A DNA stretch of 64,000 bases from Nitrospira sp. (lineage in GTDB: Bacteria; Nitrospirota; Nitrospiria; Nitrospirales; Nitrospiraceae). Under the pieces are notes generated by a model. It was given only the letters and a program-made list of their open reading frames with translations, ran no database searches and was not told the DNA's origin. Below are positions 39,976-57,091 of the stretch, piece after piece. Location: positions 1 to 64,000 of the forward strand of contig JAVYIN010000005.1 in assembly GCA_035968315.1 (NCBI GenBank), given 5' to 3'. Position numbers and translations under genes: made by a program. Position 1 is the first letter of the stretch. Every line of letters begins with the position of its first letter.

Positions 39976-40214
39976 CAGGCCGCTAGCGGCTGTTCCCCTG
40001 TCTCTATCGATCTCCTTCTGGTTTTCGTTGAAAGTCCTGAGCGATGGGTTCCCCGCATCATGGGGGGGAATCTGTGGGGATTTTCTCGACGGCCCATCCT
40101 CCGCGGCCTTCATGGAGTCCAGTCATTGCTCGCTAACGTATTGATGAACCGGAAGAGTTATGCGGTTGCTTCAGCCGTGGCTTCGCTGGCAGAGGGCTTG
40201 CTGATGGGCAGGGC

Positions 40215-40565
40215 ATGACCACATCAACAATCCAAAGCCGGGAGCTCATGAACGAGAAAAAACAACGGTTCCATATCGGGGTTGTCGTCCGAACGCATCC
40301 CCGATTCGCCTCTTTGACTCCTCGGGAGTACGAAGTCCTGCAGTGGGTTGTGCAAGGCAAATCGAACGGGGATATCGCCGTGATTCTGGGCCTGGCTCTC
40401 CGCACGGTCAAGAAACACCTGGAACGAGTGTTTGCCAAGTTGGGCATTCACAGCCGGTTTGAGGCAATGGCGCTCTGTTATGAACTGGCTTATCGGCAGG
40501 AAGATGCCGGGCAGCAGGATGGCACATACGACCGAAGCCGTATTGTCAGGGATAGGCCGTCCTGA
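40215..40565 (+). CDS. Small LuxR-type HTH transcriptional regulator
   Basis: A 116-residue protein consisting mainly of one LuxR/GerE DNA-binding domain. LTPREYEVLQWVVQGKSNGD, IAVILGLALRTVKKHLERVF and KLGIHSRFEAMAL follow in order, covering the HTH helices. There is no receiver or sensor domain. ATG 40248, with GGGAG close upstream, is an alternative start. The ~240 bp upstream (39976-40214) hold only a short GCCGCTAGCGGC palindrome at 39979-39990. It sits at the left edge of the lipoprotein island and may regulate it. Confidence 0.8.
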   Translation: MTTSTIQSRELMNEKKQRFHIGVVVRTHPRFASLTPREYEVLQWVVQGKSNGDIAVILGLALRTVKKHLERVFAKLGIHSRFEAMALCYELAYRQEDAGQQDGTYDRSRIVRDRPS

Positions 40566-40761
40566 GATGGTGCGCGCGCAGTATCAGAATGATGCGACGA
40601 AGCACATATCGCGGGAAGTTTCTTCTTGGAAGATGGTCATGAAGCTCTTGTGGTGTGGACCAAGGGAGATGGTCTGTATGTCCATGTGGGGCATGTGCCA
40701 GTGATCCGTCAGTTGCGGGCTCGGTTACGGCAAGGATGCGATTGGCTACAGGGAGGTGGTT

Positions 40762-42861
40762 ATGAAGGGTGTATGGCGGGGGATTGGTTTATCGGGGTTC
40801 ATTGCAGTTGTGGCGTGCATCGCACTGGTTGCTTGCAGCGGAGGTGGGAGCAGCAGTGGCGGCAGCACACCTTCGGTGCAGACGGGATCTGTATCTGGGG
40901 TAGTTGTTTCAGCGGAGACAGGGAACGCGCCGGTGGCAGGTGCGTTCGTGAGCACAACGGCAGGGTCGACTGCGTCAGGCGCCGATGGCAGCTTCACGGT
41001 ACCAGCTCCGGTGAATGATCGTGCTGTCATCCACGTTGAGGCCAGCGGGTTTGCGGAGGCGTTTCCAGTTGCACGGGTAGTATCGGGGCAGACTACGACG
41101 GTTGGCGTCAAGTTGCTCCCGGTCGGGTCTACGCAGCCCGTGACGGTGGCGAGCGGTGGAACTGTGACGGTACCCAACTCGACGGCGCAGGTCGATCTGC
41201 CCGCCAATGGGCTGGTTCCCCAAAATGGCGGCACGGTAGCCGGAACGGTCAATGTGTCCGTTACTCCGATTAACCCCGCAGTCGATCCGAAGTTAATGCC
41301 TGGTGACTTTACCGGCTTATCGGCTGGAGGAACGACGCCGATTGAAAGCTTTGGCGCGATCGTTGTGGATATCCGCGACAATGCCGGTAATCGCTATAAC
41401 TTAGCGGCAGGCAAGACCGCGACGATCCGGATTCCGTTAGGGACCAAAAGCTCGAATCCTCCCACCACCATTCCCCTCTGGTATTTCGATGAGACAAGCG
41501 GGTTATGGAAGGAGGAAGGTACGGCGACGCTCCAAGGAACGGCTCCAAATCAGTATTACGAAGGGACTGTCTCACATTTCAGTACGTGGAATGCGGATGA
41601 TCCGATGCTGCGAACGTGGGTGAATGGCTGCGTGCAGGATGCAAATGGGCAGCGGGTGGCCTATGCATGGGTGGAGAGTGACGGCATTGACTACTCAGGA
41701 GGCGATTCTGATTGGACGATGGCCGACGGGACATTCAAAGTAGGAGTCCGGAAAGGCGGATCATCGGCAGTCAGGGTAGTTAAGTATAATTCTAATCCAT
41801 TTAGTTTCGAGGTGATCAGTAATTCTGTGACGGTGACCTCGTCGCCCAATGACCCCACGGATTTTGTACGAACCTTGCAGAATTGCCTGGTTGTGAACCC
41901 CGGGGTCTTGACGGTTGCCACCTCCGTGTTGGCGGGGGGCAATGTGAATGCCGTCTACAATCAGACATTAGCCGCAACCGGCGGCGTGCCAGGCTATGCC
42001 TGGAGTCTGAATGCCGGGTCGAATCCCTTGCCGGCCGGATTGTCGTTGAATGCATCCGGCGTGATTTTGGGTACGCCGACGGCGGCGGGCACGACGACGA
42101 TCACGGTGAAGGTCACGGACTCGGTCGGCGGGATCGCGACCAAACAGCTGAGCATCACGATCAGTCCGGCTGGGGTGATGCCCATCAGCATCACGACCGC
42201 CTCGCCGCTACCGGCAGGAGTCGTTGGGTCTACCTACAATCTTTCGCTGGCAGCCACGGGGGGAACCGGCACCAGAACGTGGAGCGTGACTGCCGGGTCG
42301 TTGCCGACAGGACTGACACTCAATCCGTCCACTGGGGCGATCAGTGGCATACCTACGACACAGGGGACGGCTACGTTTACCGTTCAAGTGGCGGATAGTG
42401 GGAATCCACAACAGTCTGATCAGCGGCAACTGAGTCTGACCATCAACTCAGTCGGTGGTGGCGGAGGAGGCACGCTTACGGTGACTGGTGCACCAGCGAG
42501 CGTGGGAGGGAGTTTTGTCGTGAATCCGAGCGATATTGTTATAGAAGACTTCTTTGGGTTTAGAGGTGTTGTATGGGGTGAGGTAGTTTCAGGGGGCCAT
42601 ATAGAGGGAGTAGGGGTAGTCTATGAGCTCTCAACAGGGAACCTAGTAAGTTCATCCTTCTTTATCTCAGATGGAGGGGTGTACAAACAGTGGTCTTGTT
42701 TCACGCCGTTAGGTTCTCCGCTTCCTGGGTGGACTCCATGTAGTGGGGTTACGTTGGACGTCAGTACAGGGACGGTCACTTTTGCGAACGCGACGTTGGG
42801 TGACATTGAAAATCTAGTACCTACCATTACCCTGAATGGCTCGTTGAGCGTTACGCCGTGA
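40762..42861 (+). CDS. Large Ig-like repeat lipoprotein (paralogue 1)
   Basis: A 699-residue exported lipoprotein. ATG 40762 has GGGAGG upstream. The signal peptide ends in a LVAC lipobox followed by a Gly/Ser-rich spacer. Residues ~40-120 form a carboxypeptidase-regulatory-like beta domain (GVVVSAETGNAPVAGAFV). Residues ~130-290 hold a conserved module with DLPANGLVP and LWYFDETSGLWKEEG. Residues ~375-560 hold two putative-Ig (He_PIG-type) repeats (LPAGLSLNASGVILGTP; LPTGLTLNPSTGAISGIP). After a poly-Gly linker, a ~125-residue tip carries two cysteines and is lower in GC. A paralogue lies at 53976. Outer-membrane or surface location is inferred. Confidence 0.8.
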   Translation: MKGVWRGIGLSGFIAVVACIALVACSGGGSSSGGSTPSVQTGSVSGVVVSAETGNAPVAGAFVSTTAGSTASGADGSFTVPAPVNDRAVIHVEASGFAEAFPVARVVSGQTTTVGVKLLPVGSTQPVTVASGGTVTVPNSTAQVDLPANGLVPQNGGTVAGTVNVSVTPINPAVDPKLMPGDFTGLSAGGTTPIESFGAIVVDIRDNAGNRYNLAAGKTATIRIPLGTKSSNPPTTIPLWYFDETSGLWKEEGTATLQGTAPNQYYEGTVSHFSTWNADDPMLRTWVNGCVQDANGQRVAYAWVESDGIDYSGGDSDWTMADGTFKVGVRKGGSSAVRVVKYNSNPFSFEVISNSVTVTSSPNDPTDFVRTLQNCLVVNPGVLTVATSVLAGGNVNAVYNQTLAATGGVPGYAWSLNAGSNPLPAGLSLNASGVILGTPTAAGTTTITVKVTDSVGGIATKQLSITISPAGVMPISITTASPLPAGVVGSTYNLSLAATGGTGTRTWSVTAGSLPTGLTLNPSTGAISGIPTTQGTATFTVQVADSGNPQQSDQRQLSLTINSVGGGGGGTLTVTGAPASVGGSFVVNPSDIVIEDFFGFRGVVWGEVVSGGHIEGVGVVYELSTGNLVSSSFFISDGGVYKQWSCFTPLGSPLPGWTPCSGVTLDVSTGTVTFANATLGDIENLVPTITLNGSLSVTP

Positions 42862-42913: not shown

Positions 42914-43509
42914 GAGCATGGGGAGAAAAGTTGGAGTGTTAGAAGGTGCCGATAAGGCCTATTTTCGTATTGAGCCAGAAGTGGGTTGATGAGGTTCTCG
43001 GCTCATCGTCAGACCATCGTGCTAAGGTTTCATTTCCCGTCACCCTACTTATGGGTAGGGCCGAATGGCCTAGTTGCGACTAATGAGTGCCTTCATTAGA
43101 ATGGGGCCGTTTTTCATCCTGCTAATTAAAGGGTTTCATTGCAGTGAAGTAAGGAGAAGCGGAGGGTCGTTCTGAGTGCGTAACGCATGGTTCTCCTTAC
43201 GGACGATTCCAGCCCCCTGTCCTCCCTTCAAGGTCTTCCATATAGCCGCATTCTCAATGAGCGGTCTGCCGTCAAAGGACGGCAGGCCAGCGATTCTCTC
43301 CAGTTTAAAACGTCTGCGAGATAGTGTGTGCCTGGATATATTCTCCGTGGCTGCGCGAGGCTGTGGAGTTCGGACGTCGTTTCCCTTCCCCCTCTTGCAT
43401 CCGCCACCGCGATCCATTTCATAAATATTTGTCGAGTGAACAGCGAGCTGACAGGGCTGTGTGAGGGTGTGAGTTGAAGATAGGCAGGGAGCACAAAGGA
43501 GGAATGCGC
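42914..43509. other. Long non-coding gap with palindrome and conserved flank
   Basis: No supportable gene is seen in these ~600 bases. Two things stand out. CCCTAC (43043-43048) and GTAGGG (43055-43060) form an inverted pair with a 6-base spacer, a possible regulator site. The stretch 43063-43114 (GAATGGCCTAGTTGCGA, then CATTAGAATG and CCGTTTTT) is related to 56191-56243 behind the other paralogue. A promoter for the downstream lipoprotein genes should lie here, but I could not fix one. Confidence 0.5.
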
Positions 43510-44340
43510 ATGTGTGATGGGGGGAGCCGTCGGCGAAGAATGAAAGAGAATGCATTGCTGCAGGTCAGGCGAGGTGTTGGGTCGGTTGGTTTGGTCATGC
43601 TGGGTCTTTTACTGGGAGGGTGTTCGAAAGCTTTCGTCATTGTCGATGTGCCGGTGAAGCCGGAATTTATACCGCCAGGGAGTATTAGAGAAGTCGACGT
43701 GCATGCGTTTCAAGGGCCTCAGGAATGTGCACCAGAGCTAGAGAAGGGGGTCAAGGCGCGAGCAGTGGAAGACTTCACAGTGACGATACCTGGGCTTCCC
43801 GATTTGGAGGGGCCTCTGGAAGTCGATGGGACTGTCGAGAAATGCTCCATGCGAATGGGGTATGGCGTATTGAATGCGACGATGCGTCTGTCGCATGCAG
43901 GGAAGCCGTTGTACCAAAAAACAGTGCGGGAGGAATCAAATAGACCCGGGGCTTCGACCGAAGAGATGCAGGCTGCGCTGGTGAAGCGGGTGATTGATAA
44001 GTTCGCGGCGATGTTTGTGTCAGGGAAAAGGGGCGAACTTCGAGAGGGCCGCCCGTTGGGATCTGCAGACCCTGGGTGGATTGCGGCAAAAGAGAAAAAC
44101 TGGAAACTGGCGATCGAGTTCTGGAGCAAGCACCTTGCTCAAAATCAGAATGATGCGCGTGCATGGTACAACCGCGGCATTGCCCATGAGGGGTTGTGGG
44201 AGTTCAAGGAAGCGGTGGCTGATTATAAGAAGGCGTCAGAGCTGGAACGGGATGATGTCTATACGCAGGCGCTTGTGCGAGCGGAGAAGTTTCTTCGAGA
44301 CTCCATTGTCATCAATGCCGCTAAAAAGTCGAGGGAGTAA
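43510..44340 (+). CDS. TPR lipoprotein
   Basis: A 276-residue lipoprotein. ATG 43510 is seven bases after GGAGG; two earlier in-frame starts are too close to it or lack one. The signal peptide ends in LLLGGC. Residues ~45-180 form a beta-rich domain beginning PEFIPPGSIREVDVHAFQG. It loosely resembles CsgG/DUF6340-type periplasmic lipoprotein domains, but I cannot assign it. The C-terminal ~90 residues carry TPR helices (WKLAIEFWSKHLAQNQND, ARAWYNRGIAHEGLWEFKEA). It is followed after five bases by the next secreted protein, so the two are one operon. Confidence 0.7.
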   Translation: MCDGGSRRRRMKENALLQVRRGVGSVGLVMLGLLLGGCSKAFVIVDVPVKPEFIPPGSIREVDVHAFQGPQECAPELEKGVKARAVEDFTVTIPGLPDLEGPLEVDGTVEKCSMRMGYGVLNATMRLSHAGKPLYQKTVREESNRPGASTEEMQAALVKRVIDKFAAMFVSGKRGELREGRPLGSADPGWIAAKEKNWKLAIEFWSKHLAQNQNDARAWYNRGIAHEGLWEFKEAVADYKKASELERDDVYTQALVRAEKFLRDSIVINAAKKSRE

Positions 44341-44345
44341 GCGCG

Positions 44346-45335
44346 ATGAATAGCGTAGGGGAGGGCAAACCAGGGCAGTTGAAGAGGGGTGTTACAGGAG
44401 TTGTCCAAAACGCTGGATTGATGGGGGGCGCCATCATGCTGGTGGTGCTGTGGGGATCGGTCTTTAGCCTGCCTGTGCATGCCGAGCCGGTGGTGAAAGT
44501 GCTGTTTGGCACTGACAAGTGCACTTTTTTGCCGGAACGTCTTGCGCCAAGTTGGGTTAATAAGCGTCCCCTCACCACAGATTTTGTGGGAGTCGGCAGT
44601 GCTCCGCACATGGCAAATCCCACCGAGCAGATCCAGACCGCGGAGGGGAATGCACGGGCGGCTTTGGCCGCTGAAGTTTCAGTGTCGGTCAAAGATGAGA
44701 TTGTGCAGGATATGAAAGAAGACCAGGGCGTCACAATGATGAAAATCGAATCCCTGACCAAGCAGGTTGTCGATCAGACTTTGTCTGGGTCGAGAATCGA
44801 AGAACGGTATTTGGATCGGCAAAATTGCATGGTATATGCGCTCGCAATGATTTCCAAAGCGGATGTTGAAGCGGAGAGGCGGAAGACCTGGGAGAAGTGG
44901 CGCAAAATGTTCAAGAACAAGCAGCTCATGCTCCTCGACCGATCTGAGGCGCAGGGCGAGATGGTCACTGCTACTCGCGGTCATCTCGATGCGCTGTTCA
45001 AACAAATAGGGAATAAGCTGGTGGCTTCAGATAGCGGGCACAGTGTATGTGCCGATGATCCGTTGCAGCCTGCCTGTCAGCAGCCAGCCGACATCATCTA
45101 TGCCGGTTATAAAGTCGTGCTGGACAAGGAAGCCGAGGCGTCAGGGATGAAGCGCCGGATCTATAAGCTGATCGGGACGGTTCGATTCAAAGATCGTGTC
45201 ATTGCCTCCTTTGATGCGGCGTGCCAGGGCACCGCGAAGGTCGGTCAGGAGTATGTGATCGATCAACAGGCGGCCAAATCCTGTTTCGAGAAAACCAGGC
45301 CGGTGATTGAAAAGGGCATGGAGGGGTCTGAGTAA
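44346..45335 (+). CDS. Exported LPP20-like protein
   Basis: A 329-residue protein with a long N-region and a signal peptide ending in LPVHAEP, so it is probably periplasmic rather than lipidated. Residues ~80-160 match the LPP20 style: FVGVGSAPHMANPTEQIQTA, then EGNARAALAAEVSVSV and a DQTLSGSRIEERYLD strand. The C-terminal half has four cysteines (CADDPLQPAC and two more) and a conserved-looking beta segment. LPP20 domains occur in outer-membrane lipoproteins of flagellar and envelope systems. Function here is unknown. Confidence 0.65.
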   Translation: MNSVGEGKPGQLKRGVTGVVQNAGLMGGAIMLVVLWGSVFSLPVHAEPVVKVLFGTDKCTFLPERLAPSWVNKRPLTTDFVGVGSAPHMANPTEQIQTAEGNARAALAAEVSVSVKDEIVQDMKEDQGVTMMKIESLTKQVVDQTLSGSRIEERYLDRQNCMVYALAMISKADVEAERRKTWEKWRKMFKNKQLMLLDRSEAQGEMVTATRGHLDALFKQIGNKLVASDSGHSVCADDPLQPACQQPADIIYAGYKVVLDKEAEASGMKRRIYKLIGTVRFKDRVIASFDAACQGTAKVGQEYVIDQQAAKSCFEKTRPVIEKGMEGSE

Positions 45336-45628
45336 GGTGCTCGGGACGCAAGGGCTACCGTCTCATGCGTTGCGCGGGGAGCCGGCCCTGCGTCATGCGG
45401 GGAAAAGCCGGGGTGCGGCCGCTGACTCGTGCCGTATCCGCTGAGGGAAACACCATATTCCCAGGCAGTTTGAGTACGTGGGCTGAAGGAACAGGGCTTG
45501 CTGAAACGAAGGGTAGCGGGCCGTCAGGCAGAATGACGCCGGAACTACCACCCGACGAGCCGTGAAGAAGTAGAACGACCCGCAGGGGCATGACGGGACT
45601 CGTCAAACCGGAAAAGGAGAAGGGACGT
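45336..45628 (+). other. Non-coding leader of the coiled-coil lipoprotein gene
   Basis: No gene was found in these ~290 bases. The left part contains two related GC-rich segments (TCATGCGTTGCGCGGGG at 45363 and TCATGCGGGGAAAAGCCGG at 45393). A sigma-54-like site occurs at 45487-45502, which leaves a ~115-base untranslated leader before the ATG at 45629. Confidence 0.45.
45487..45502 (+). promoter_or_regulatory. Sigma-54-like -24/-12 element
   Basis: AGGAACAGGGCTTGCT has GG and GC separated by exactly ten bases and an intact TTGCT. Against the consensus TGGCACG-N4-TTGCW it mismatches at three specified positions: the first T, the C after GG, and the G at position 7. It lies 126 bases before the coiled-coil lipoprotein start. 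Confidence 0.5.
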
Positions 45629-47038
45629 ATGAAACGGCCAGTGAGTGATCAGCTAGGCAAGGCATCCCGAATCATCGCCGCGGGGGTGCTGTGCTTCGGG
45701 CTTGCGGGGTGCGGGACTCTCTCGGGAGGGAACGGCCAGTCCAGCCTCTCCGGCTCATCGGGCTCCATGTTCGGAGGGTTTGGCTTGCCGATCACGGTGT
45801 CACCGAAGTGCCTGTCCTGGGATGTGGTCAAGGAAACTTGGGGCCTGCTCCAAGAGCCTCCGACGATTGAGTCGGCCTTGGACCGGGTCAATACGGCAGC
45901 CAGGATTATCGAGGTCGGCGATCTGATCTTGCATACCTTGCCGATTTCCGGAGGGTCTGAGTGGCCTCAGAAGGCTAATGGCAGCGTACCAATGAGCGAG
46001 GAGAACGCGCTGCGGCAGTTGATTCAGCAGGATCCGGCCTATTATGCCGGAGCTGCCGGGCAAACGTCGGCGCTGAAGCTGAAGGCGATGTATCTTCAGA
46101 CCCTGCTGTTTAACAAGTATCCCGACCTCTATGCCCTCCGCAAGGCCGGAGCCGCCGCTCCCGCCGAGTCTGAAGTCAATGCATTGGCGACGAAAGTGCT
46201 GGGGCCTGGGTATAGTCCGGCCTTTACGAAAGTCTTCTACCGGTTGCTCCACTATAACCCGGCGTTCGAGCCGAAGGCGGATTTGTTTGCCGGGCGTGCG
46301 GCGGGTACGGCGATGGAGGTCTATCCAAGCCTGTTCGATGCGGTCATGTCCTTAGCTGAAAACAAGCCGGAGATTCTGCGCGCGCAGGAATCCGTCCTGC
46401 AAGCGGAAGAAAAGAAAGGGAAGGAACGGCGGGATATTTTAGAAATTGTGCAGCGGATCCAGAAGCTGGAGGCCGAAGAATTCGGCAACCCTTCAACCCC
46501 TGAAGAGGCGGTGAAGGCCAGCGAGCGGGACACGAATGCGAAAGAGGTCGAAGAACTCAAGGCGCAGCTTGCGGTGCAGGAAGAGGAATTCAAGGTCACG
46601 GTCACAGCGTATAAAGAGGAGCTGGCGAAGCTGGGGATTGAAATGGGGCAGATCAAGACCCAGGTGGGGGCTTTCACTCCGGAGCAGCGCGCGCTGGCGG
46701 CGAATATTCAGACGGCTGTGGATGCGGTGCAAGGCACGATGTGCCAATCGGAAATCCTCCTGGGCATCGCCGGATACCACCTGAAAAAGGCGGGGCCAAA
46801 TTGGAAAAAAGAGGTGCAAAAGATCGCCAATGAGAGTGGCCAGACGGTCAATGAGCGGATCAAGCGGGTCACGCTCAATCTGGCGGCCCTCCCGGCTAAT
46901 TTGTCCGTCTTGATGATTGAGCTTGGGGTATTGGATGAAGAAGCCAAGGTTCAGGACGATCTGTTTACGAATCGGATGAGTGTGGATTCCGGCGGCGGTG
47001 GGATTGGGGCTAGCTGGATGCCCAGGGTGGGCTGGTAA
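45629..47038 (+). CDS. Coiled-coil lipoprotein
   Basis: A 469-residue lipoprotein starting at ATG 45629 with AGAAGGGA upstream. The signal peptide ends in a GLAGC lipobox and is followed by a Ser/Gly-rich linker. Residues ~70-240 are mixed. Residues ~250-350 are strongly charged and predicted coiled coil (Glu/Lys/Gln-rich, for example EVEELKAQLAVQEEEFKVTV). The C-terminal ~110 residues are helical and end in GASWMPRVGW. I do not recognise a family. It is preceded by a sigma-54-like element and a long leader. Confidence 0.65.
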   Translation: MKRPVSDQLGKASRIIAAGVLCFGLAGCGTLSGGNGQSSLSGSSGSMFGGFGLPITVSPKCLSWDVVKETWGLLQEPPTIESALDRVNTAARIIEVGDLILHTLPISGGSEWPQKANGSVPMSEENALRQLIQQDPAYYAGAAGQTSALKLKAMYLQTLLFNKYPDLYALRKAGAAAPAESEVNALATKVLGPGYSPAFTKVFYRLLHYNPAFEPKADLFAGRAAGTAMEVYPSLFDAVMSLAENKPEILRAQESVLQAEEKKGKERRDILEIVQRIQKLEAEEFGNPSTPEEAVKASERDTNAKEVEELKAQLAVQEEEFKVTVTAYKEELAKLGIEMGQIKTQVGAFTPEQRALAANIQTAVDAVQGTMCQSEILLGIAGYHLKKAGPNWKKEVQKIANESGQTVNERIKRVTLNLAALPANLSVLMIELGVLDEEAKVQDDLFTNRMSVDSGGGGIGASWMPRVGW

Positions 47039-47273
47039 CAAGTCGCCTCAAGTCCGCGCGGGGAACGTTCCCTGGGAGATGCGGGGAAGAGCATGAAACA
47101 CAAGGGGTGTTTCCCGGGAATAACGAAGTTAGATCACTGTATTTCAACGGTTTAGAGTGGCAGGCACGCTGGAATGAGGTTTGCTGAAGCAGAGAGTCAA
47201 ACGGGGAGTCAGGTAACGGACTCCAAATGAGAGAGTTCAAACATTCACTCATTACTCACAACAGGGGGGCAAG
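47039..47273 (+). other. Non-coding leader region with sigma-54-like site
   Basis: No gene was seen. The left part has a GGGAACGTTCCC palindrome (47060-47071). The sigma-54-like element at 47170-47185 is the main feature. GGGGGGCAAG just upstream of the ATG at 47274 is the ribosome site of the next gene. Confidence 0.45.
47170..47185 (+). promoter_or_regulatory. Sigma-54-like -24/-12 promoter
   Basis: TGGAATGAGGTTTGCT matches the consensus TGGCACG-r-NNN-TTGCW at all but two specified positions, with correct GG-N10-GC spacing. Transcription would start near 47196, about 78 bases before the LPP20 lipoprotein gene. It is the best of the three such sites in the island. Confidence 0.6.
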
Positions 47274-47921
47274 ATGAAGCGTGACAACGGAATGAAAGCG
47301 GGGATGCTGGTGGCGATGGGGGCTGTGGCGATCATGTCGCTGGTGACTGGCTGCGCAGAGCAGAAACCGATGGGGCAGGAAGCGGACGGAATGGCCAGGG
47401 TCGATACGCCGATTCAGGATGTGAAGGGCCTGCCGAAGTGGGTGAATCAGAAGGGCGCGGCCTTCAGTGGGGAACGGCGCGTGCTGCACGGTGTGGGGAG
47501 CGCCTCAGGAATTAGAAATCCGACCTTGCGCCGGCGGGCGGCGGAAGGCCAGGCGCGGAACGACATGGCGGCGACGCTGCAGGTCTACGTGGCCGGCTTG
47601 CAGAAACAGTATATGGCCGAGACCACAGCCGGCGATATGTCGAAGGTCGAGGTGGAGCAGCATATCCAGGACACGATGAAGCAGGTGACCGAAGCGACGC
47701 TCGTCGGCGTGCAGATTGTGGAGTACTGGGAGCATCCTATGCGGAACGAGGCCTATGCGCTGGCTCGGCTGGACATGGAGCAGTTCATGGAAATCATGAA
47801 GTCGTACAAGTCCGCGAGTGCCGGATTTGCGCAGCTGGATGCCGGTCTTCGGGAATGGGTCCGCAATAACGCCGAAAAAGCTCATGACCAGCTGAATGAC
47901 GAGCTGCAGAAGAAAAAGTAG
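47274..47921 (+). CDS. LPP20-family lipoprotein
   Basis: A 215-residue lipoprotein with signal peptide ending in SLVTGC. The LPP20 domain is visible from residue ~65: RRVLHGVGSASGIRNPTLRR, AAEGQARNDMAATLQVYV, TLVGVQIVEYWEHP and EAYALARLDMEQFMEIM. This is the pattern of the family (GxG, helix, then VxxYW and LARLD). It starts a run of closely spaced genes that ends with the CHASE2 activator. The next gene begins ten bases after its stop. Confidence 0.75.
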   Translation: MKRDNGMKAGMLVAMGAVAIMSLVTGCAEQKPMGQEADGMARVDTPIQDVKGLPKWVNQKGAAFSGERRVLHGVGSASGIRNPTLRRRAAEGQARNDMAATLQVYVAGLQKQYMAETTAGDMSKVEVEQHIQDTMKQVTEATLVGVQIVEYWEHPMRNEAYALARLDMEQFMEIMKSYKSASAGFAQLDAGLREWVRNNAEKAHDQLNDELQKKK

Positions 47922-47931
47922 GAAGCAGGGG

Positions 47932-48354
47932 ATGCCTGTCCGGCGATGGAGTGTCGTGCTGCTCGGGAGTGGGTGGCTGCTCGGCTGCATTGGCTGCGCC
48001 GAGCAGCCTCCGGCCTGGATATCCGCGCTGCCCGCATCGAAGAGGGACATCTGCGCGATCGGCGTCAGCGGGCCCACCTACTATGCCGAAGATGCCCGGA
48101 CGAATAGCAAGGCGGCGGCGATGACGGAGCTGGCGAGGGCAGTGGCGGTGACCGTGACGTCTCAGATGACGCTGCAGACCCGCGGTGACGCCACCAGCTC
48201 GGACACGGCCATACGGGAGCGCGCCGGTTTCAGCAGCGAGGTGGTGCTGACACAGGCGCAGGTGCGTGAGCAATGGGTGCATTCCGGAGACAATGTGAAA
48301 TACGGAGAGAAGGGAACCGTCTACACACTGGTCTGTACGCCTATCGGACAATAA
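47932..48354 (+). CDS. Small LPP20-like lipoprotein
   Basis: A 140-residue lipoprotein from ATG 47932, with GGAAGCAGGGG upstream. The signal peptide has two possible lipoboxes (LLGC and CIGC), the second followed by AEQPPAW. The domain shows DICAIGVSGPTYYAEDA, then a helix TNSKAAAMTELARAVAVTV and a late TVYTLVCTPIGQ. It is a short version of the LPP20 fold seen in the two neighbouring proteins. It is co-transcribed with them. Confidence 0.68.
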   Translation: MPVRRWSVVLLGSGWLLGCIGCAEQPPAWISALPASKRDICAIGVSGPTYYAEDARTNSKAAAMTELARAVAVTVTSQMTLQTRGDATSSDTAIRERAGFSSEVVLTQAQVREQWVHSGDNVKYGEKGTVYTLVCTPIGQ

Positions 48355-48375
48355 GTCTGATGGAAGGAGGCAAGG

Positions 48376-48879
48376 ATGACACACAGAATGGCCATCATCT
48401 CTATGGCAGTGATCGGGACAGTAGTCAGCGCCTGGTTCGTGCTGGCGCCGGGGCCGGCGCAAGCCGTCAAAGACAATGACGTCTGGTTGATTACGCCGCA
48501 GGAGGCCGCGATGGCTCCGGCGCGGGAGGGGGTGTTGGGCGGTGAAATCCCCATTGCCGCCGAGTCGGATCTGGGGCCGAAGATCGAGGTGGTCAAGCCG
48601 AATAACGGCGGCAGCGCGCCGCCGCCGGTCGAAGTCGATATTAAGTTTACGCCCAAAATGAGCCCGGTCGATCCGGCAAGCCTGAAAGTGAGCGTGGTGA
48701 AGTTCATTAATATCGATATCACGGACCGGGTGCGGGCGTATGCAACAGCGAGCGGGATTCATGTTCCTGGCGCGCAATTGCCGTCGGGGAAGCATACGGT
48801 TCGCGTCAGCATTGCCGATCAAGATGGCCTGCGCAGCGTGAAGGATGTGACCTTCGAAGTGCTGGAAGGCAAGTCCTAA
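48376..48879 (+). CDS. Secreted beta-sandwich protein
   Basis: A 167-residue exported protein with signal peptide ending in GPAQAV and an AAGGAGG ribosome site. After a linker, residues ~75-165 look like an Ig-like beta domain. It has KIEVVKPNNGGSAPPPVEVD, SPVDPASLKVSV and LPSGKHTVRVSIADQDGLRS. Such domains serve as binding modules in periplasmic and surface proteins. I cannot name a family. It lies between the LPP20 genes and the protease gene. Confidence 0.6.
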   Translation: MTHRMAIISMAVIGTVVSAWFVLAPGPAQAVKDNDVWLITPQEAAMAPAREGVLGGEIPIAAESDLGPKIEVVKPNNGGSAPPPVEVDIKFTPKMSPVDPASLKVSVVKFINIDITDRVRAYATASGIHVPGAQLPSGKHTVRVSIADQDGLRSVKDVTFEVLEGKS

Positions 48880-48912
48880 CGAGGGACACGCCGCGGAATA
48901 TTGGAGGGGGCG

Positions 48913-49983
48913 ATGAAGAGCAAAGCCAGAGTGGCAGGAACCGGTTTCCTGCGAGGAGCGATCCGCGTGGGCGTCGCGCTCGCGCTCGCCGTCGAAGGCC
49001 GGTTGGCAGAGGCGGTTGCCGCAGAGCTGTCTCCGGCGCAGATCTATGCGTCAGCGGCACCGGCCGTGGTGTTCATTGCCGCGGTGGGATCTGAAGGCAT
49101 GGGGCAGGGCACCGGATCGATTATTGATGCCGGCGGGTTGGTGCTCACCAACGCGCACGTGATTCTTGATAAACCGACGGATGCCCCCGCAAAGAAAGTC
49201 TTTGTGTTTCTCAAGCCGGAGCGCGTCATCGGCAACGAGAGTAATCAGGAGAATCTGACCCGGCGGCATGCGGCGACGGTGGTTGCGTATGACAAGGCGC
49301 TGGATCTCGCGCTGCTGAAGATCACGAATCCGGCCACGCCGTTACCGGTGCTGGCGCTGGCTGATCCCGGGGGAACGACCATCGGCGCGCGGGTGCTGGC
49401 CATCGGCCATCCGGAGTCGGGAGGGCTCTGGACGCTGACGACCGGCGTGATCAGCGCCGAATGGCAGAATTTTACCGATGTGCCAGGGAAGGATATCTTC
49501 CAAACCGAAACCAGCCTCAATCGCGGAAACTCCGGCGGGCCGCTGATTGATATGGAGGGGCATCAAGTTGGCGTCAATAGCATGATCGCCCGCAAGGCCA
49601 AAGACGGGCTGGCGATCACCAGCATCAACTTTGCCATCAAATCCAATGTGGCGAAGGATTGGCTGGGCAAGCAGGGCGTTCAGGTCGCCTATGCGGCGCC
49701 ACCCGCGGCACAGACGGAACGTCCTGCGGAACCTGTCAAACCCACAGTGGCGCCCGCTCCGATCCCCGATGGGGGGAAACAGGCTGCTGCGCCTCCGGCC
49801 AAACCGCAGCCGGTGAAAGTGCTCGAAAACCAGCCGGAAGCCAAGCCGGAAACAGGCCCCGGTCTCCCGCCTGTGCGGCCGTTTAGCCTGGACCGGTTAA
49901 TGAAGGGGCTGGATCTGGTGCAGAAAGATTTAGAGTCCCAAATGGATGATATGCAAAACGAGATTCGGAAACGCCGTCGATAG
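48913..49983 (+). CDS. Periplasmic trypsin-like serine protease (S1C/HtrA-like, no PDZ)
   Basis: A 356-residue protein from ATG 48913, with GGAGGGGG upstream. A signal peptide is followed by a trypsin-2 domain at about residues 45-250. The catalytic histidine is in LTNAHVI, the aspartate in ALDLALLK, and the serine in RGNSGGPLID. There is no PDZ domain. The tail is Pro/Ala/Lys-rich (~100 residues) and ends in a short charged helix (LDLVQKDLESQMDDMQNEI). HtrA-like proteases act in envelope stress. The location two genes before a transmembrane transcription activator suggests linked roles. Confidence 0.85.
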   Translation: MKSKARVAGTGFLRGAIRVGVALALAVEGRLAEAVAAELSPAQIYASAAPAVVFIAAVGSEGMGQGTGSIIDAGGLVLTNAHVILDKPTDAPAKKVFVFLKPERVIGNESNQENLTRRHAATVVAYDKALDLALLKITNPATPLPVLALADPGGTTIGARVLAIGHPESGGLWTLTTGVISAEWQNFTDVPGKDIFQTETSLNRGNSGGPLIDMEGHQVGVNSMIARKAKDGLAITSINFAIKSNVAKDWLGKQGVQVAYAAPPAAQTERPAEPVKPTVAPAPIPDGGKQAAAPPAKPQPVKVLENQPEAKPETGPGLPPVRPFSLDRLMKGLDLVQKDLESQMDDMQNEIRKRRR

Positions 49984-49991
49984 GAGCAGCC

Positions 49992-50636
49992 ATGAAGATG
50001 CATTGGACACAACGCACGCATACCCGGGCTCAAGCAATCGGCCGAATCGTGATGGCCGCAATACTCGGAATAGCTGTGATGCAAGGGGCGGTTCAACTAG
50101 CGCATGCTGAAGCCCCTGACGTGAAACTCGACTGTTCCATTTATGAAACCAAAGAGACGAATCTCGGCGCGGCATTCAAAGTAGCGCAGTTCATCTTCAA
50201 GGTCGGGCCGGAGTTCAGTTTCAGCCGGCGTTCCGGCGTGGCCTGGGACAAGGCCGTGCATGGCACCATTGCCCGGTATGTGGAGTTGTGCAATCGGTAC
50301 AACGCGGGCGCGGTCACGAAGGCGGAGTATGAGGCGCGCATGAGGGAGATTGAGGGGCTCTATAAAGAAACCAAAGAAATGGAAGCGAAGCTGTACGCCG
50401 CGACACGCCAGCGGGCACGTGATGCCGGCGATGAGCTCGAAGAGGCCCTCGGGCGTTCACGCCGCGCGCCGGCCGCTCCGACCAAGGCGAGCCTTGAAGC
50501 ATCCGTCGAAGCCCTGGCCGATCGTGTCGAGCATCTCGAGCCGATCGGTCAGCCGTTGAAACCGGCATCGCCGTGCAAGCCTCCGGACATGCTGGGCTCG
50601 CCGGGGGTGTCACCCGATCCTGGGCGATCCTGCTAA
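49992..50636 (+). CDS. Exported helical protein of unknown function
   Basis: A 214-residue protein with a signal peptide ending in LAHAEAP. The mature part has a short Cys-containing segment (KLDCSIYETKETN). A helical charged region follows (EYEARMREIEGLYKETKEME). A Pro-rich tail with two cysteines ends the protein. No family is recognised. The gene follows the protease after eight bases and precedes the activator gene by ten, so all three are probably translated from one mRNA. Confidence 0.6.
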   Translation: MKMHWTQRTHTRAQAIGRIVMAAILGIAVMQGAVQLAHAEAPDVKLDCSIYETKETNLGAAFKVAQFIFKVGPEFSFSRRSGVAWDKAVHGTIARYVELCNRYNAGAVTKAEYEARMREIEGLYKETKEMEAKLYAATRQRARDAGDELEEALGRSRRAPAAPTKASLEASVEALADRVEHLEPIGQPLKPASPCKPPDMLGSPGVSPDPGRSC

Positions 50637-50646
50637 TAGAAACGCG

Positions 50647-53472
50647 ATGTCGTTCAAACCAAATCATCGCTTTGTCGCAGGCCTGGATATTGGAGTGGCG
50701 TCATGTCTTATCTTGGCCGCGCTGCTGATGCTTGTGCCGGGGTTGGCGTCATCCTGGGAGGCCAGCACCTACGATCTTCGCATGCGGTGGCGAGGTGCCG
50801 GGCCTGCCACCGATAAATTGGTGATGATCGGCCGCGATGCGGAAAGCGATGCCCGATTCGGCGTCGGGATTTGGGATCGCGCTATGTTTGCGAAGGTGAT
50901 CGGCGCACTGCATCGTGCCGGCGCCACGGCGGTCGCGCTGGATTTTCATTTTGGAGACGAGAGTCCGGCTGAGCGGGGCGGAGGTGCCAGCGACCGGGCG
51001 TTGGCCGATGCGGTATCTTCCGCGGGAAATGTGCTGGTTCCTCTTCCGGTCAGTTTCGAACATGACGCCGGATCGGCGCCGACCGTCCATCTTCCGCTCA
51101 AGGACAGTCTTGCGCATATCGTCCCCACATTCGACTCAGTTATCGTGCAGGCGCTGCTCCATGCGAGCCGTGTCGCTGGTCCGATGCCTGGCCTTCTGAG
51201 CTCCGCGCGGGGCGGCGGCCACATCGGCGCGATATCCGATCCGGATGGCGTGTACCGGCGTGTGCCGACGTTTGTGAATGCCGGCGGAGTGGCGCTTCCT
51301 TCGATGGGGGTCGCGCTGGCAGCGGCGTATCTTCATGTGAAGCCGGACGCGATGCAGTTGATTCCTGGCGATTCCCTGGTGTTTCCGCATGCGACGTTAC
51401 CCGATGGCTCGCAGCGAACCCTTTCGATTCCGGTCGATCGGCAGGGGAATGTCTTGATCGACTATGCCGGCCGCTGGACGGATGGTCCGTTCCCCTATCT
51501 CTCCTTTGCCGATGTGTGGGATGCCATCAACGAAGGACGCGAGGCGGAACTGCGTGAGCAGGTGGCGGGCAAGGCGGTGCTGATCGTGCATGCGGCGTTG
51601 GGGTCGGATAAGCGGCAGACCCCGCTCGAGCTCACGGCGCCCGGCGGGTTTATCCTGGCGAATATCTTCAGCACGGTGCTCACGGGAAGCGCTCTGCGGC
51701 CGCTGCCGGATTGGGGAATCTGGATGCTCGTCGCGGTACTAGGAACGGCTGGATCCTGGTCGATGCTAGCCTGCACGCTGTGGAACGGTATCGCCGTGGC
51801 GGCTGGCCTCGGACTCGCCTATCTCGCCCTGGCCCACGTCAGTTTCTTGCTATGTGGACTTGTGCTGCCGATCGTGCTGCCGATCGCCGGGCTGGTGCTC
51901 GCGACTGGCGGCGGGCTTGTGTGGTCCCATCGGCTGAACACCGGGCGGATTCATGAATTGGAATCGGGCCTGTTGGCGTTGCATCGAGAGTTGGCGGGAC
52001 GGCAGCAATTGCTAGTCCAGCACGAGACGCGTGTCGAACAGCTGGAAGACGATCTTGAGAGCGCCAGGACAGAGGCGACGGAAGGGCAGGCGCAGACGGC
52101 GCAGTTGCGCGACATGATGGAATCCCTGCAGCGGAATTTACGCCAGGCCCAGGAGGAAGCGGCGGAAGCCCGCCAGGCGGTGACCAGCTTGCAGGCACGA
52201 TTGGATGAGGCGCGGGCGGCTGAGGTGAGTCCTGGAAAGCTTTCCAGCCTCGATGAGCGCGAATTACAGATGGAATGTGCGCGCCAGGGGATTCTCACGC
52301 GTGATCCGGGGTTATTGCGCTGTTGGAAAGATCTCCGGAAAGCCGCGCGCAGTCTGACGCCGATTCTGATTCTTGGAGAACCAGGGACAGGCAAAGAACT
52401 TTTCGCGCAGGCAGCCCACCGGTTGAGCGACCGGTCAACCGGACCATTTGTGCCGGTGAATATGGCCGCTGTTCCAGCAGATCTGTTTGAGAGCCAGCTG
52501 TTCGGGCATAAGCGAGGCTCCTTCACCGGATCGGTGAGCGACCACGATGGCTATTTTCTCCAGGCCAACAAGGGCACGATCTTTCTCGACGAAATCGGGG
52601 ATCTCCCAATGGTCCAACAAGCCAAGTTGTTGCGTGTGTTGCAGGAGGGCGTGGTCACACGCGTGGGCGACCGGAACCCCATGAAGATCGACGTGCGCGT
52701 CGTCTCCGCGACCAATAAGAATTTATTGCAAGGCATTGCCGAGGGGTGGTTTCGCGAAGATCTCTATTATCGTGTGCACGGCATTGAACTGCGGTTGCCG
52801 CCGTTGCGGGAACGGCAGGCCGATCTGCCTGAACTGGCGAAGAGTTTTATCGATCGGACGGCCGCGCAGGAAGGCCGTTCAAAGATTATGCTTTCCCAGG
52901 GGGCGCTCGATCGCCTGAAAGCGTGGCCCTGGAAGGGGAACGTACGGGAGCTGAAACGGTGTTTGGAAAACGCGGTGATCCTCGCGGACGGCGCTACGAT
53001 TATGGAAGAGGATCTTCGCCTGACTGGTCCGGCAGCAGGGGAGGCCGGCGGGCTGGCTCCAGCCGGGCCAGCCGTTGCCTTGTCCGAAGGGGACAACGAT
53101 CCGAAGAAAAGCGATACGGTTCTGTTGCGGCTTCTTCGAGAGCATAGCTTCGATCTTCAAGCCACGGCGGCCACGCTGGGCTGGGACCGCAGCACGGTCA
53201 TGCAGCGATTAAAGGGCATGTGCTTCCAGGCATTGGTGCAGCAGAAGGGCGATGAACGGGCAGCGGCCTCACGCCTCGCCGGCGATCCGGGGTTGACCAG
53301 GCTGATGGAAGTGAAGCTCAAGGAATATGTCGAACACCTGCACAAGGTCGTAGCGACCTTCCCCTCTCAAGAGGCTGCCCTCGCCGGCTGCCGCAAGCGG
53401 TTCAAGAATCTGCCGGAGCGCTATCACGAGGCGCTGGCTGAGCTGGTGCGGGTTAAGTACAGGACTGCCTAG
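50647..53472 (+). CDS. CHASE2-domain membrane sensor fused to a sigma-54-type AAA+ activator
   Basis: A 941-residue protein. An N-terminal membrane segment (~12-32) leads to a periplasmic CHASE2 domain (~35-340; DLRMRWRG, a GATAVALDFHF segment, ISDPDGVYRRVP). About three membrane segments follow (~355-425), then a long coiled coil (~435-530). The AAA+ domain has Walker A GEPGTGKE, KRGSFTGSVSDHDGYF in the GAFTGA position, Walker B GTIFLDEIGD, an arginine-finger region and GNVRELKR. The C-terminus holds an HTH-like FDLQATAATLGWDRSTVMQR segment. The GAFTGA loop is altered to GSFTGS. It probably senses an envelope signal and activates sigma-54 promoters directly from the membrane. Confidence 0.85.
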   Translation: MSFKPNHRFVAGLDIGVASCLILAALLMLVPGLASSWEASTYDLRMRWRGAGPATDKLVMIGRDAESDARFGVGIWDRAMFAKVIGALHRAGATAVALDFHFGDESPAERGGGASDRALADAVSSAGNVLVPLPVSFEHDAGSAPTVHLPLKDSLAHIVPTFDSVIVQALLHASRVAGPMPGLLSSARGGGHIGAISDPDGVYRRVPTFVNAGGVALPSMGVALAAAYLHVKPDAMQLIPGDSLVFPHATLPDGSQRTLSIPVDRQGNVLIDYAGRWTDGPFPYLSFADVWDAINEGREAELREQVAGKAVLIVHAALGSDKRQTPLELTAPGGFILANIFSTVLTGSALRPLPDWGIWMLVAVLGTAGSWSMLACTLWNGIAVAAGLGLAYLALAHVSFLLCGLVLPIVLPIAGLVLATGGGLVWSHRLNTGRIHELESGLLALHRELAGRQQLLVQHETRVEQLEDDLESARTEATEGQAQTAQLRDMMESLQRNLRQAQEEAAEARQAVTSLQARLDEARAAEVSPGKLSSLDERELQMECARQGILTRDPGLLRCWKDLRKAARSLTPILILGEPGTGKELFAQAAHRLSDRSTGPFVPVNMAAVPADLFESQLFGHKRGSFTGSVSDHDGYFLQANKGTIFLDEIGDLPMVQQAKLLRVLQEGVVTRVGDRNPMKIDVRVVSATNKNLLQGIAEGWFREDLYYRVHGIELRLPPLRERQADLPELAKSFIDRTAAQEGRSKIMLSQGALDRLKAWPWKGNVRELKRCLENAVILADGATIMEEDLRLTGPAAGEAGGLAPAGPAVALSEGDNDPKKSDTVLLRLLREHSFDLQATAATLGWDRSTVMQRLKGMCFQALVQQKGDERAAASRLAGDPGLTRLMEVKLKEYVEHLHKVVATFPSQEAALAGCRKRFKNLPERYHEALAELVRVKYRTA

Positions 53473-53975
53473 CGAGTGTGCATTCCCGTTGTTGTTCTTC
53501 CATCGATCCGCGATCAAGGTCAGATAGGGACAGGTATTCACGGCCACTAACCCAAGCACGATCCAGGATTTCTCGTGGCGTTATTAGTAAACACCGGAGT
53601 GAGTCTCCGGGGAACTGTGGGCGTTGTATAGCGGCCTCCTTCCTTCTGCAGCTACGATACTGACACTTTCCATTTCCAATCCATTAACCCATCGCCTCCC
53701 TTTCGTTTGTCCCATCAGGCTGCTGGAAGGCTTCCCGCAGCCTGCGGGGATCTCTTGATCTCCACGGCTGCGAGCCAGTTCTAATCGTGAGTATGCGCAC
53801 TTCGTTAATTGAACGAGTTATCAGTAAATTCAAATGTTTATGTGTCCATGCTCGTCGAGTTTGTCCTTCCTTCGCTAGTCGGCATGGCTGTTGCGCTAGA
53901 CCCGTTTGCAGAGAGCGCATTCCGAGGTGGAATGAAGGGGCTTCGGACAACGGGATCAACGAGACCAAGGAGGGG
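53473..53975 (+). other. Non-coding gap with hairpin and sigma-54-like site
   Basis: No supportable gene. CCGGAG/CTCCGG (53594-53610) is a small perfect hairpin that could end the activator transcript. CGGCATGGCTGTTGCG (53880-53895) has GG-N10-GC spacing and TTGC, with three mismatches to the sigma-54 consensus. It is 81 bases upstream of the lipoprotein start. An ORF extension back to 53787 is not believed because a clean ribosome site precedes 53976. Confidence 0.5.
53880..53895 (+). promoter_or_regulatory. Sigma-54-like -24/-12 element
   Basis: CGGCATGGCTGTTGCG preserves GG, CA, G, the purine and TTGC of the consensus with correct spacing. It mismatches at the first base, the C of CACG and the last base. 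It precedes the second large lipoprotein gene. Confidence 0.45.
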
Positions 53976-56111
53976 ATGATGAGGTGGATCAGGTCAAATT
54001 GGAGGCAACGGTTGGTGGTGGGGGTGCTGATTCAGTCTCTTTTGTGGTTGGGGGGCTGTGGGGCTGGTGGCGGAGGGGGGACGGTATCATTGCCAGCGGC
54101 TCAGACCGGGATGGTGACGGGGCAGGTGGTATCGGCATCGAACAATGGGGCTGTGGCTGGCGCGACGGTGAGCACCACAGCCGGTTCGACGACCTCGGCA
54201 TCGGATGGAAGTTTTACGGTGGCTGCGCCGGTTGGAGACCGGAGTGTGGTGCATGTGGAGGCGAATGGGTATGCAGAGGCCTTCCCGGTGGCCCGTGTGG
54301 TGGTCGGTGAGACGACGACGCTCGGAGTCAAGCTTCTTACGACGGGTGTCAGTACAGCCGTCAGTGTGGGGACCGGGGGCACCGTGACGGTGCCCAACTC
54401 GACGGCGCAGGTGGATCTGCCCGCCAATGGGCTGGTTCCCAAAATTGGCGGCGCGGCGGCCGGAACGGTCACTGTCTCAGTGACTCCGATCAACCCGGCA
54501 GTCGATCCCAATTTAATGCCGGGGGATTATACGGGTGTCACGGCTGGCGGGACCACGGCCATCGAGAGCTTTGGCGCGATCGTGGTCGATATTCGTGACA
54601 ATGCGGGAACGCGGTACAACCTTGCGGCGGGCAAGACCGCGACGATCCGGATTTCGCTGGGGACGCAGAATCCCAATCCTCCATCGACCATTCCGCTGTG
54701 GTATTTCGATGAGACGACCGGGCTGTGGAAGGAAGAAGGCTCGGCGACACTACAAGGATCAGCCCCTAACCAGTATTACGAAGGGAGCGTCTCGCATTTT
54801 AGCGCCTGGAATGCCGACGATCGGTTGCTGAGAACTTGGGTCGAGGGCTGCGTGAGAGATGCCAATGGTCAGCCGGTGGTGATGGCTGAGGTGAGAAGCA
54901 CAGGCATTGACTACACCGGAGTAGCTTATGCTTGGACAAATTCTGATGGCGCCTTCCGGGTCGGAGTACGGAAGGGAAGTTCGGCGACTATCAGTGTGTT
55001 ACGGTGGGACTGGAATTCATATAGCTATGAAACGATTAGTAATGCCGTCACGGTGACCTCGTCGCCGAATGACCCCACGGATTTTGTGCGAACCTTGCCC
55101 AATTGCATTGTGGTCAATCCGGGGGTCTTGACCATTACCACCTCCATGTTGGCGGGGGGCAATGTGAATGCAGGCTACAATCAGACATTAGCCGCAACCG
55201 GCGGCGTGCCGGGCTATGCCTGGAGTTTGAATGTCGGGTCGAATCCCTTGCCGGCTGGGTTGACGCTGACTGCATCCGGTGTCATTACAGGGACCCCAAC
55301 AACGGCGGGCACGACGACGATCACGGTGAAGGTCATGGATTCGGTCGGCGGGGTCGCGACCAAGCAACTGAGCCTGACGATCAGTCCGGCTGGTGTGGTG
55401 CCGATCAGCATCACGACCACTTCGCCGCTGCCGGCTGGGGTCGTTGGGTCTACATACAATTTTTCGCTGGCTGCCGCGGGGGGGACCGGTACCAGAACGT
55501 GGAGCGTGAGTGCCGGGTCGTTGCCCACAGGGTTGACGCTCAATCCGTCCACTGGGGCGATTAGCGGCACGCCTACGGTACAGGAAAACGCAACATTCAC
55601 GGTCCAAGTGGCGGATAGCGGGAATCCGCAACAGTCTGATCAAAAGCAGTTCAGCCTTACCATCAACTCGGTTTCAGGGGGCGGTGGAGGAGGGCAGTTG
55701 AGCGTGAGCAATGCCCCCGCCAGTGTCGGTGGAACATTCGTTGCCGATCCAACATATACGTCGGCAATTACGTATACGGTCGCAATAAATCCTCCTGTTG
55801 GTGTCACTGCGGTCGCCTGGGAAGAAGGCTACAATTTGAACACTGCACATTGGGAGGCTGTCGTAGTCGGATTTGACTCGGCGACTGGCAATCTGAATGC
55901 CACTACCGTGGCCTATTGGGTGTATGAAGATTTGGTCGGTGCCACAGGAACCTATTGGTACTGCGCCAATTCAACGACCTCCTGCAATATCACCGTCGAT
56001 ATGGCGGCACGCACAGTCACGTTCAATAACTCTGTGCTCAGCAGTCTGACGGGAGCCGCTGCCGTTACTTTAAATGGCACGTTGTCTTATCCGGTGCCGA
56101 CGGTACAGTGA
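53976..56111 (+). CDS. Large Ig-like repeat lipoprotein (paralogue 2)
   Basis: A 711-residue lipoprotein, ATG 53976 (or 53979) with AAGGAGG upstream. The signal peptide ends in a LGGC lipobox and a poly-Gly spacer. Domain order is the same as in the 40762 gene: regulatory-like beta domain, conserved module with DLPANGLVP and WYFDETTGLWKEEG, two putative-Ig repeats, Gly-rich linker and a C-terminal tip. The stalks are nearly identical over long stretches. The tip (~residues 575-711) is divergent but keeps two cysteines and a VTFNNSVL/VTLNGTLS ending. Ligand and exact location are unknown. Confidence 0.8.
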   Translation: MMRWIRSNWRQRLVVGVLIQSLLWLGGCGAGGGGGTVSLPAAQTGMVTGQVVSASNNGAVAGATVSTTAGSTTSASDGSFTVAAPVGDRSVVHVEANGYAEAFPVARVVVGETTTLGVKLLTTGVSTAVSVGTGGTVTVPNSTAQVDLPANGLVPKIGGAAAGTVTVSVTPINPAVDPNLMPGDYTGVTAGGTTAIESFGAIVVDIRDNAGTRYNLAAGKTATIRISLGTQNPNPPSTIPLWYFDETTGLWKEEGSATLQGSAPNQYYEGSVSHFSAWNADDRLLRTWVEGCVRDANGQPVVMAEVRSTGIDYTGVAYAWTNSDGAFRVGVRKGSSATISVLRWDWNSYSYETISNAVTVTSSPNDPTDFVRTLPNCIVVNPGVLTITTSMLAGGNVNAGYNQTLAATGGVPGYAWSLNVGSNPLPAGLTLTASGVITGTPTTAGTTTITVKVMDSVGGVATKQLSLTISPAGVVPISITTTSPLPAGVVGSTYNFSLAAAGGTGTRTWSVSAGSLPTGLTLNPSTGAISGTPTVQENATFTVQVADSGNPQQSDQKQFSLTINSVSGGGGGGQLSVSNAPASVGGTFVADPTYTSAITYTVAINPPVGVTAVAWEEGYNLNTAHWEAVVVGFDSATGNLNATTVAYWVYEDLVGATGTYWYCANSTTSCNITVDMAARTVTFNNSVLSSLTGAAAVTLNGTLSYPVPTVQ

Positions 56112-56965: not shown

Positions 56966-57091
56966 TGGTTTGTGAGGGCAAAGTAAGGATGTAGCGCCCT
57001 CATGTTTTATCAGGTTGTTGATGTGATGCCAGGTTTTCGGAGATCCGTTGGTGTGTGATTTGAAAGCAGTTCATTCTTGAACGGAGGGATC

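Follow-up and report, generated by a model that had tools for sequence, protein, structure and literature searches.

The CHASE2 domain is known from receptors with cyclase, GGDEF, kinase or caspase outputs, and its signal was stated to be unknown in 2016 (PMC5192318). The nearest described arrangement that we found is the Burkholderia BiofilmReg operon (PMC5192318), in which a CHASE2 transmembrane sensor is encoded together with an exported FecR/LysM protein and a DUF4136 lipoprotein. Here we consider a similar setting in Nitrospira sp., in a stretch of 64,000 nucleotides (contig JAVYIN010000005.1; hereafter the window), where positions 43510-53472 hold an island of nine same-strand genes, g1 to g9, the terminal one encoding a membrane activator with a CHASE2 domain. 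In BiofilmReg, CHASE2 resides on a histidine kinase that is accompanied by a separate response regulator, whereas in the island there is one sigma-54-dependent sensor-activator protein, and the partners are LPP20, Ig-like and protease proteins. The receptors listed above share the domain with g9 and differ from it in the output, which in g9 is a sigma-54 activator.

For Clostridiales, most sensory domains of such activators are reported to be without transmembrane regions (PMC6615313), which stresses how unusual a membrane-anchored activator such as g9 is. Our literature search yielded no paper joining CHASE2 with sigma-54 or with an enhancer-binding protein (EBP), most subscription papers being outside the search, so a prior description is possible. 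From the data given below, g9 and its control sites very probably form a one-component, autoregulated CHASE2-sigma-54 circuit that drives an exported regulon.

The activator and its probable control sites

Domains were assigned using Pfam profiles with the family cut-offs; export signals, signal peptides, lipoboxes and start codons were read by hand and from hydropathy, without a signal-peptide predictor. In g9, CHASE2 (145 bits, the cut-off being 26.3) and Sigma54_activat (205.5 bits, with the lid domain) are found in the same open reading frame (ORF), and no histidine kinase or receiver domain was matched by Pfam in the nine island genes. This agrees with a first-pass annotation of the same DNA, which had proposed a direct fusion of CHASE2 to a sigma-54-type AAA+ domain bypassing a two-component relay. 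The hydropathy profile has transmembrane-like segments at residues 15-33, 358-376, 373-391 and 400-418, that is, one before CHASE2 and three after it, as in CHASE2-metacaspase (PMC3501461); thus, both chain ends would be cytoplasmic and CHASE2 periplasmic. The ATPase motifs are intact (Walker A GEPGTGKE, Walker B FLDEIG, FREDLYYR), the arginine fingers are present, and in the alignment the F and T of the sigma-54 contact loop are invariant. The helix-turn-helix (HTH) segment is well conserved within the activator family. The structure model of the CHASE2 region is of low confidence (mean pLDDT 65.6, below 50 for residues 133-218) and had no usable match in PDB, and only coiled-coil and similarly weak matches came up when PDB sequences were searched with the CHASE2 profile.

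The GG-N10-GC sites and a shared upstream box before g3 and g4 were initially noticed by eye. The 10-mer ATGCGGGGAA from this box occurs three times in the window, each time ahead of a GG-N10-GC site; the genome, 3.1 Mb in size and with a single rpoN, contains it 12 times. The full element, recognised in the upstream regions of relatives, is a 19-bp dyad, TCCCCGC-N5-GCGGGGA. The dyad matrix was trained only on five sites from three related loci (L067, L068 and L069), no window site being included. Its four best matches in the 64 kb (40050, score 19.6; 53732, 17.8; 45385, 17.1; 47069, 13.8) all fall in the promoter gaps of the island, which constitute about 2.9% of the window, the maxima in 20 Markov-simulated windows being 10.1-17.1. 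Each of these dyads has a sigma-54 site (GGN9TGC) 83-130 bp downstream, toward the next gene, with the chance of such a match about 12-16% for each dyad (Table 1). The dyad at 53732 was found solely through the matrix from relatives, the other three overlap the 10-mer that had already been noticed. The promoter at 40187 has the top sigma-54 matrix score in the window. The sigma-54 consensus alone is not enriched in the window (26 sites found, 32 expected), the sigma-70 promoter and terminator scans of the window stayed at the chance level, and an Rfam scan of it matched no family.

Table 1. Genes and candidate control sites in and around the island (window positions; dyads are putative upstream activator sites).
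Feature	Position	Strand	Remarks
Dyad TCCCCGCATCATGGGGGGG	40050..40068		LuxR/lipoprotein promoter; best matrix match
Sigma-54 -24/-12 promoter TGGCAGAGGGCTTGCT	40187..40202	+	GG-N10-GC; 119 bp past dyad
Small LuxR-type HTH protein (GerE)	40248..40565	+	Pfam GerE 70.5 bits; first after promoter
He_PIG/CarboxypepD_reg surface lipoprotein 1	40756..42861	+	Pfam; lipobox VVACS
g1, TPR lipoprotein	43510..44340	+	Pfam TPR; lipobox LGGC; ORF opens at 43474 (43474-44340), start likely 43510
g2, LPP20-domain exported protein	44346..45335	+	Pfam LPP20 43.6 bits
Dyad GCCCTGCGTCATGCGGGGA	45385..45403		Third best matrix match
Sigma-54 promoter AGGAACAGGGCTTGCT of g3	45487..45502	+	84 bp past dyad
g3, coiled-coil lipoprotein	45590..47038	+	Lipobox LAGC; start probably 45629
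Dyad TCCCTGGGAGATGCGGGGA	47069..47087		Fourth best matrix match
Sigma-54 promoter TGGAATGAGGTTTGCT of g4-g9 operon	47170..47185	+	83 bp past dyad
g4, LPP20 lipoprotein	47274..47921	+	Pfam LPP20 43.0 bits
g5, LPP20-like lipoprotein	47896..48354	+	Start probably 47932; Pfam 25.5 bits, slightly below cut-off
g6, exported Ig-like protein	48376..48879	+	Weak CopC-type Ig match (E 0.0084); orthologs
g7, exported HtrA-type serine protease	48901..49983	+	Trypsin_2 100 bits, also Trypsin; start probably 48914
g8, exported protein	49992..50636	+	Predicted small beta unit and long helical hairpin
g9, activator	50647..53472	+	CHASE2-4 transmembrane segments-coiled coil-sigma-54 AAA+-putative Fis-type HTH-conserved C-terminal extension
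Dyad TTCCCGCAGCCTGCGGGGA	53732..53750		Second best matrix match
Sigma-54 promoter CGGCATGGCTGTTGCG of lipoprotein 2	53880..53895	+	130 bp past dyad
He_PIG surface lipoprotein 2	53976..56111	+	Paralog of 40756-42861; ribosome-binding site and lipobox read; ORF opens at 53787, start likely 53976, past promoter

All nine ORFs lie at the listed positions on one strand, and export signals are seen by eye and hydropathy in all eight genes preceding g9, so the description of the island as a run of exported or membrane proteins ending in a transmembrane activator holds. Its proposed limits were too narrow: the control sites extend the regulatory unit upstream to the LuxR-type gene and one He_PIG lipoprotein (40248-42861), and downstream as far as 56111, to include another lipoprotein of the He_PIG type. 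Through these sites the lipoproteins and the operon genes are linked to a sigma-54 activator, which is in line with the suggested self-contained system. Two of the three supposed LPP20-like proteins exceed the Pfam cut-off (25.9 bits) and the third, g5, does not, yet it is clearly orthologous between genomes. The g4 protein is 68-76% identical to its counterparts in four relatives and 44% in L074; orthologs of g3, which matched no Pfam family, are present in L069, L205, L206 and L212. The protease g7 was correctly recognised as an HtrA-like one without PDZ, as its triad (His86, Asp135, Ser211) is invariant in six orthologs, no PDZ domain appeared in the Pfam search, and the C-terminal part contains a Pro-rich linker and a conserved helix in place of PDZ. 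Similarly, g8 fits the earlier description as an exported helical protein with no assigned family: no Pfam family was matched, and its AF2 model, of moderate confidence (pLDDT 73.3), gave no significant match in a fold search.

Recurrence in related genomes

Related loci were collected by a search of genome contigs and by a g8 profile search across 235 genomes of the order, where the g8 family is present in 23. The ORF calls in them are mechanical, and many of these loci come from draft metagenome assemblies whose contigs break off close to the island. The contig search and the activator tree place the closest named relatives of the window genome in Nitrospira.

In four loci (L067, L069, L205, L206) the order is (g5)-g1-g2-(g3)-g4-(g6)-g7-g8-activator. 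In L067, g3 has no match and a WD40-caspase gene precedes the activator; g6 is uncalled in L069, as are g4, g5 and g6 in L206, where the ORF caller took overlapping frames. The closest match to the window comes from the same genus (L212), with g1-g2-g3-g4-g6-g7-g8-activator followed by a He_PIG lipoprotein. In L034/L068, the genes g4-g6-g7-g8 are followed by those of LPP20, CsgG-TPR and FlgT_N proteins and then by the activator, and the unit is also present in other families of the order (L074/L216 and L210). Thus, the gene order recurs both in further Nitrospira and in other families of Nitrospirales, and so withstands the comparison that the first-pass annotation had set as a refuting test. 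In the tree of 33 activators, those of the island type cluster together (95/95), separately from the DUF4384 and TPR-Sel1 types.

A different output is seen in L071/L207, where a CHASE2-GGDEF-EAL protein is preceded by the protease and g8 and followed by an LPP20 gene; hence the association of the exported cassette with CHASE2 is not confined to a sigma-54 output. On the L037 contig, the genes of a CHASE2-cyclase and a broken g8 are about 3.4 kb apart.

The dyads were further assessed by pattern search, on which all genome-wide motif counts are based. In the window genome, the dyad occurs at 13 places if one mismatch is allowed. Three of these, all intergenic and followed by a promoter at 83-130 bp, are island sites; the remaining 10 fall inside ORFs, two of them with a chance-level promoter match at 142 bp. 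We then considered a composite pattern consisting of the dyad, 80-110 bp and GG-N8-TTGC, for which the pair 47069/47170 is the sole zero-mismatch match in the whole window genome. Among 175 genomes of the family, it has nine matches in six genomes, all at islands, and none in the other 169; the reversed-pattern control also gave none. This specificity is partly by construction, since some of the islands supplied the pattern, although genomes G087 and G093 did not.

Further dyad-promoter pairs are found in L034 (RCC1 lipoprotein), L205, L206, L212 and L184/L185, in the latter two ahead of small exported or membrane proteins. In L067 a single dyad serves two divergent genes, a small one and that of a WD40-caspase. 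The spacings between dyad and promoter fall into classes of 83-86, 107-108, 117-120 and 130-131 bp; a period of about 11.5 bp (p 0.0002, from seven chosen promoters and with the period scanned) is suggestive only. In TPR-Sel1 operons no strict sigma-54 site was found upstream, and we therefore do not extend autoregulation to this type.

Several observations concern sites of this kind elsewhere. The single dyad at L067 13964 (the same as L066 6853) lies between the divergent genes and is flanked by sigma-54 sites, 107 bp away in one direction and 108 bp in the other. Downstream of islands, a small conserved protein (MGNFIFGA...GGWDPGNE; L184 3299-3751, L185 7319-7783) goes with a dyad and, 131 bp from it, a sigma-54 site; this protein was not found in the window. 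In another family, the operons DUF4384-CHASE2-CHASE2/AAA+ share a sigma-54-like site TGGTATNNNCCTTGCT near their start (L039 4844, L040 3781, L041 7324), located in L039 upstream of the DUF4384 gene, which suggests that these operons may be under independent sigma-54 control. In the TPR-Sel1 type from Rokubacteria (L077 12633, L139 12635), a dyad-like sequence is situated at or just past the 3' end of the activator gene, with a TGG-type sigma-54-like site downstream.

Proposed circuit and alternative explanations

The following circuit may be proposed, its wiring being well supported by the sequence. The activator g9 would be an inner-membrane one-component protein, with CHASE2 in the periplasm and the AAA+ and HTH domains in the cytoplasm. 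Upon a trigger at the periplasmic sensor, the AAA+ ring, bound to a dyad via the HTH, would remodel the sigma-54 RNA polymerase 83-130 bp downstream; the dyads are assigned to g9 by co-occurrence. The targets would be its own operon g4-g9, g3, the LuxR-type regulator with the large surface lipoprotein, and the second such lipoprotein, yielding a positive-feedback envelope regulon. The exported cassette g4-g8 might also feed back on the CHASE2 sensor.

Several facts weigh against this circuit. The HTH of g9 is only weakly of the Fis type (HTH_8, 15 bits, below the cut-off), at least 20 further EBPs are encoded in the genome, and the scan upstream of g1-g2 in the window genome yielded no dyad. 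The sigma-54 loop is GSFTGS in g9 and GAFTDA in L034, versus the canonical GAFTGA; among the Desulfovibrio EBPs to which target operons have been assigned, the variants GSFTGA, GAFTGG and GAFTHA are on record (PMC4641369). The promoter of g4 in L034 has TG, not GG, at -24. Finally, the window sites 45487 and 47170 had been seen before the motif was built, though they were kept out of training.

On the evidence, the exported genes seem to be at least outputs of the circuit, and two accounts of their role, each of which we hold at slightly short of an even chance, should be distinguished. If, in extension of the idea of the first-pass annotation, g4-g8 are periplasmic parts of the sensor, the protease would cut or unmask an LPP20, Ig-like or helical partner, by which CHASE2 is released or engaged. 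In favour of this, g4, g6, g7 and g8 stay together with a CHASE2 protein across families, the g7 triad and C-terminal helix are conserved, and g7 and g8 belong to the operon of the activator. The best available support, although indirect, comes from the cassette around the CHASE2-GGDEF-EAL protein in L071/L207. At the same time, g8 also occurs without a visible adjoining CHASE2 gene (L208, L211, L213), and the shared operon is equally compatible with a role as output only. Vice versa, if the exported proteins are simply the regulon, CHASE2 would sense a ligand, envelope stress or surface contact, and the co-location would reflect co-regulation. In this case the genes are targets through the dyads and sigma-54 promoters, in agreement with the common control of exterior components by sigma-54 (PMC3162934), and the content of the regulon differs between genomes (PIG, RCC1 and WD40-caspase proteins); retention of the cassette and CHASE2 with a GGDEF-EAL output would, however, be unexpected for a pure sigma-54 regulon.

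A broader generalization is somewhat more doubtful than either account: the exported cassette (LPP20, Ig, PDZ-less HtrA-type protease, helical protein) could be a dedicated periplasmic input module of CHASE2, pluggable into sigma-54, GGDEF-EAL and possibly cyclase outputs, and in Nitrospira looped by its own sigma-54 dyads.

It is unlikely that g9 is the trigger of a caspase- or protease-linked conflict or cell-death system at the envelope. L067 has WD40-caspase genes in the interval from g8 to g9 and behind a dyad promoter, and caspase genes adjoin the cassette in L208 and L209; however, Pfam finds no caspase gene in the window island, and the stretch from g4 to the activator contains none in L034, L205, L206 or L212. 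We consider it quite improbable that the dyads are bound by another sigma-54 activator, for example the own CHASE2-AAA+ paralog on contig C2. The HTH recognition helix of this paralog is nearly identical, and the genome has about 21-23 sigma-54 AAA+ matches, but the paralog is present in many Nitrospira genomes while the composite site is found only at islands, genomes with the paralog alone have no composite site, and the operons of the paralog (TPR-Sel1) carry no strict sigma-54 site upstream. A chance cluster of unrelated exported genes with chance motif matches is hardly credible: sigma-54-like sites are indeed common on their own, but the gene order is kept in many genomes, the top four motif matches are all in island promoters, and the 169 other family genomes contain no composite sites.

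Thus, the autoregulated circuit is retained as the preferred reading, and the interpretation given by the first-pass annotation is, as a whole, partly supported.

Neighbouring genes and comparison with known systems

On either side of the island lies a He_PIG lipoprotein gene; the two are paralogs of the same orientation, with two 300-nt stretches 82% and 77% identical at a distance of 13.2 kb, and recombination between them could delete the island. Further upstream, two divergent genes, 35908-38178 (minus strand) and 38245-39975 (plus strand), each contain a GlnE and GlnD_UR_UTase pair, as if the halves of glutamine synthetase adenylyltransferase were encoded apart. The gene 34786-35799 (minus strand), in a stretch of low GC (51%), has a SIR2_2-like match slightly below the Pfam cut-off and is a possible defence gene. 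Downstream, an ORF of 477 amino acids (57077-58510, plus strand) without a Pfam match lies in a low-GC stretch (52%).

The island would represent a single-protein route from the periplasm to a promoter with named control sites, so that the activity of CHASE2 could be read directly from a reporter, and its putative signals and partner proteins tested singly in this way. With it, the view that the bacterial exterior is under sigma-54 control (PMC3162934) would widen to an activator anchored in the membrane of nitrite-oxidising bacteria.

Among known proteins, g7 resembles HtrA, DegP and DegS in being exported and in having a trypsin-like domain with an intact triad, and differs from them in the lack of PDZ. 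The pair of TPR-Sel1 and CHASE2-AAA+ genes, common in Nitrospira and found in Rokubacteria, has the same activator architecture and C-terminal module as g9, whereas its partner is an exported TPR-Sel1 protein and all nine composite sites lie elsewhere. Like NtrC, NifA and AtoC, g9 combines an AAA+ domain, ATPase motifs and, putatively, an HTH with probable action from a dyad upstream of -24/-12 promoters; unlike them, it is anchored in the membrane, has a CHASE2 sensor of periplasmic type, lacks a receiver domain and carries a conserved extension past the HTH. Most likely, in some Nitrospira and related bacteria g9 directly switches on a small envelope programme without the two-component relay.

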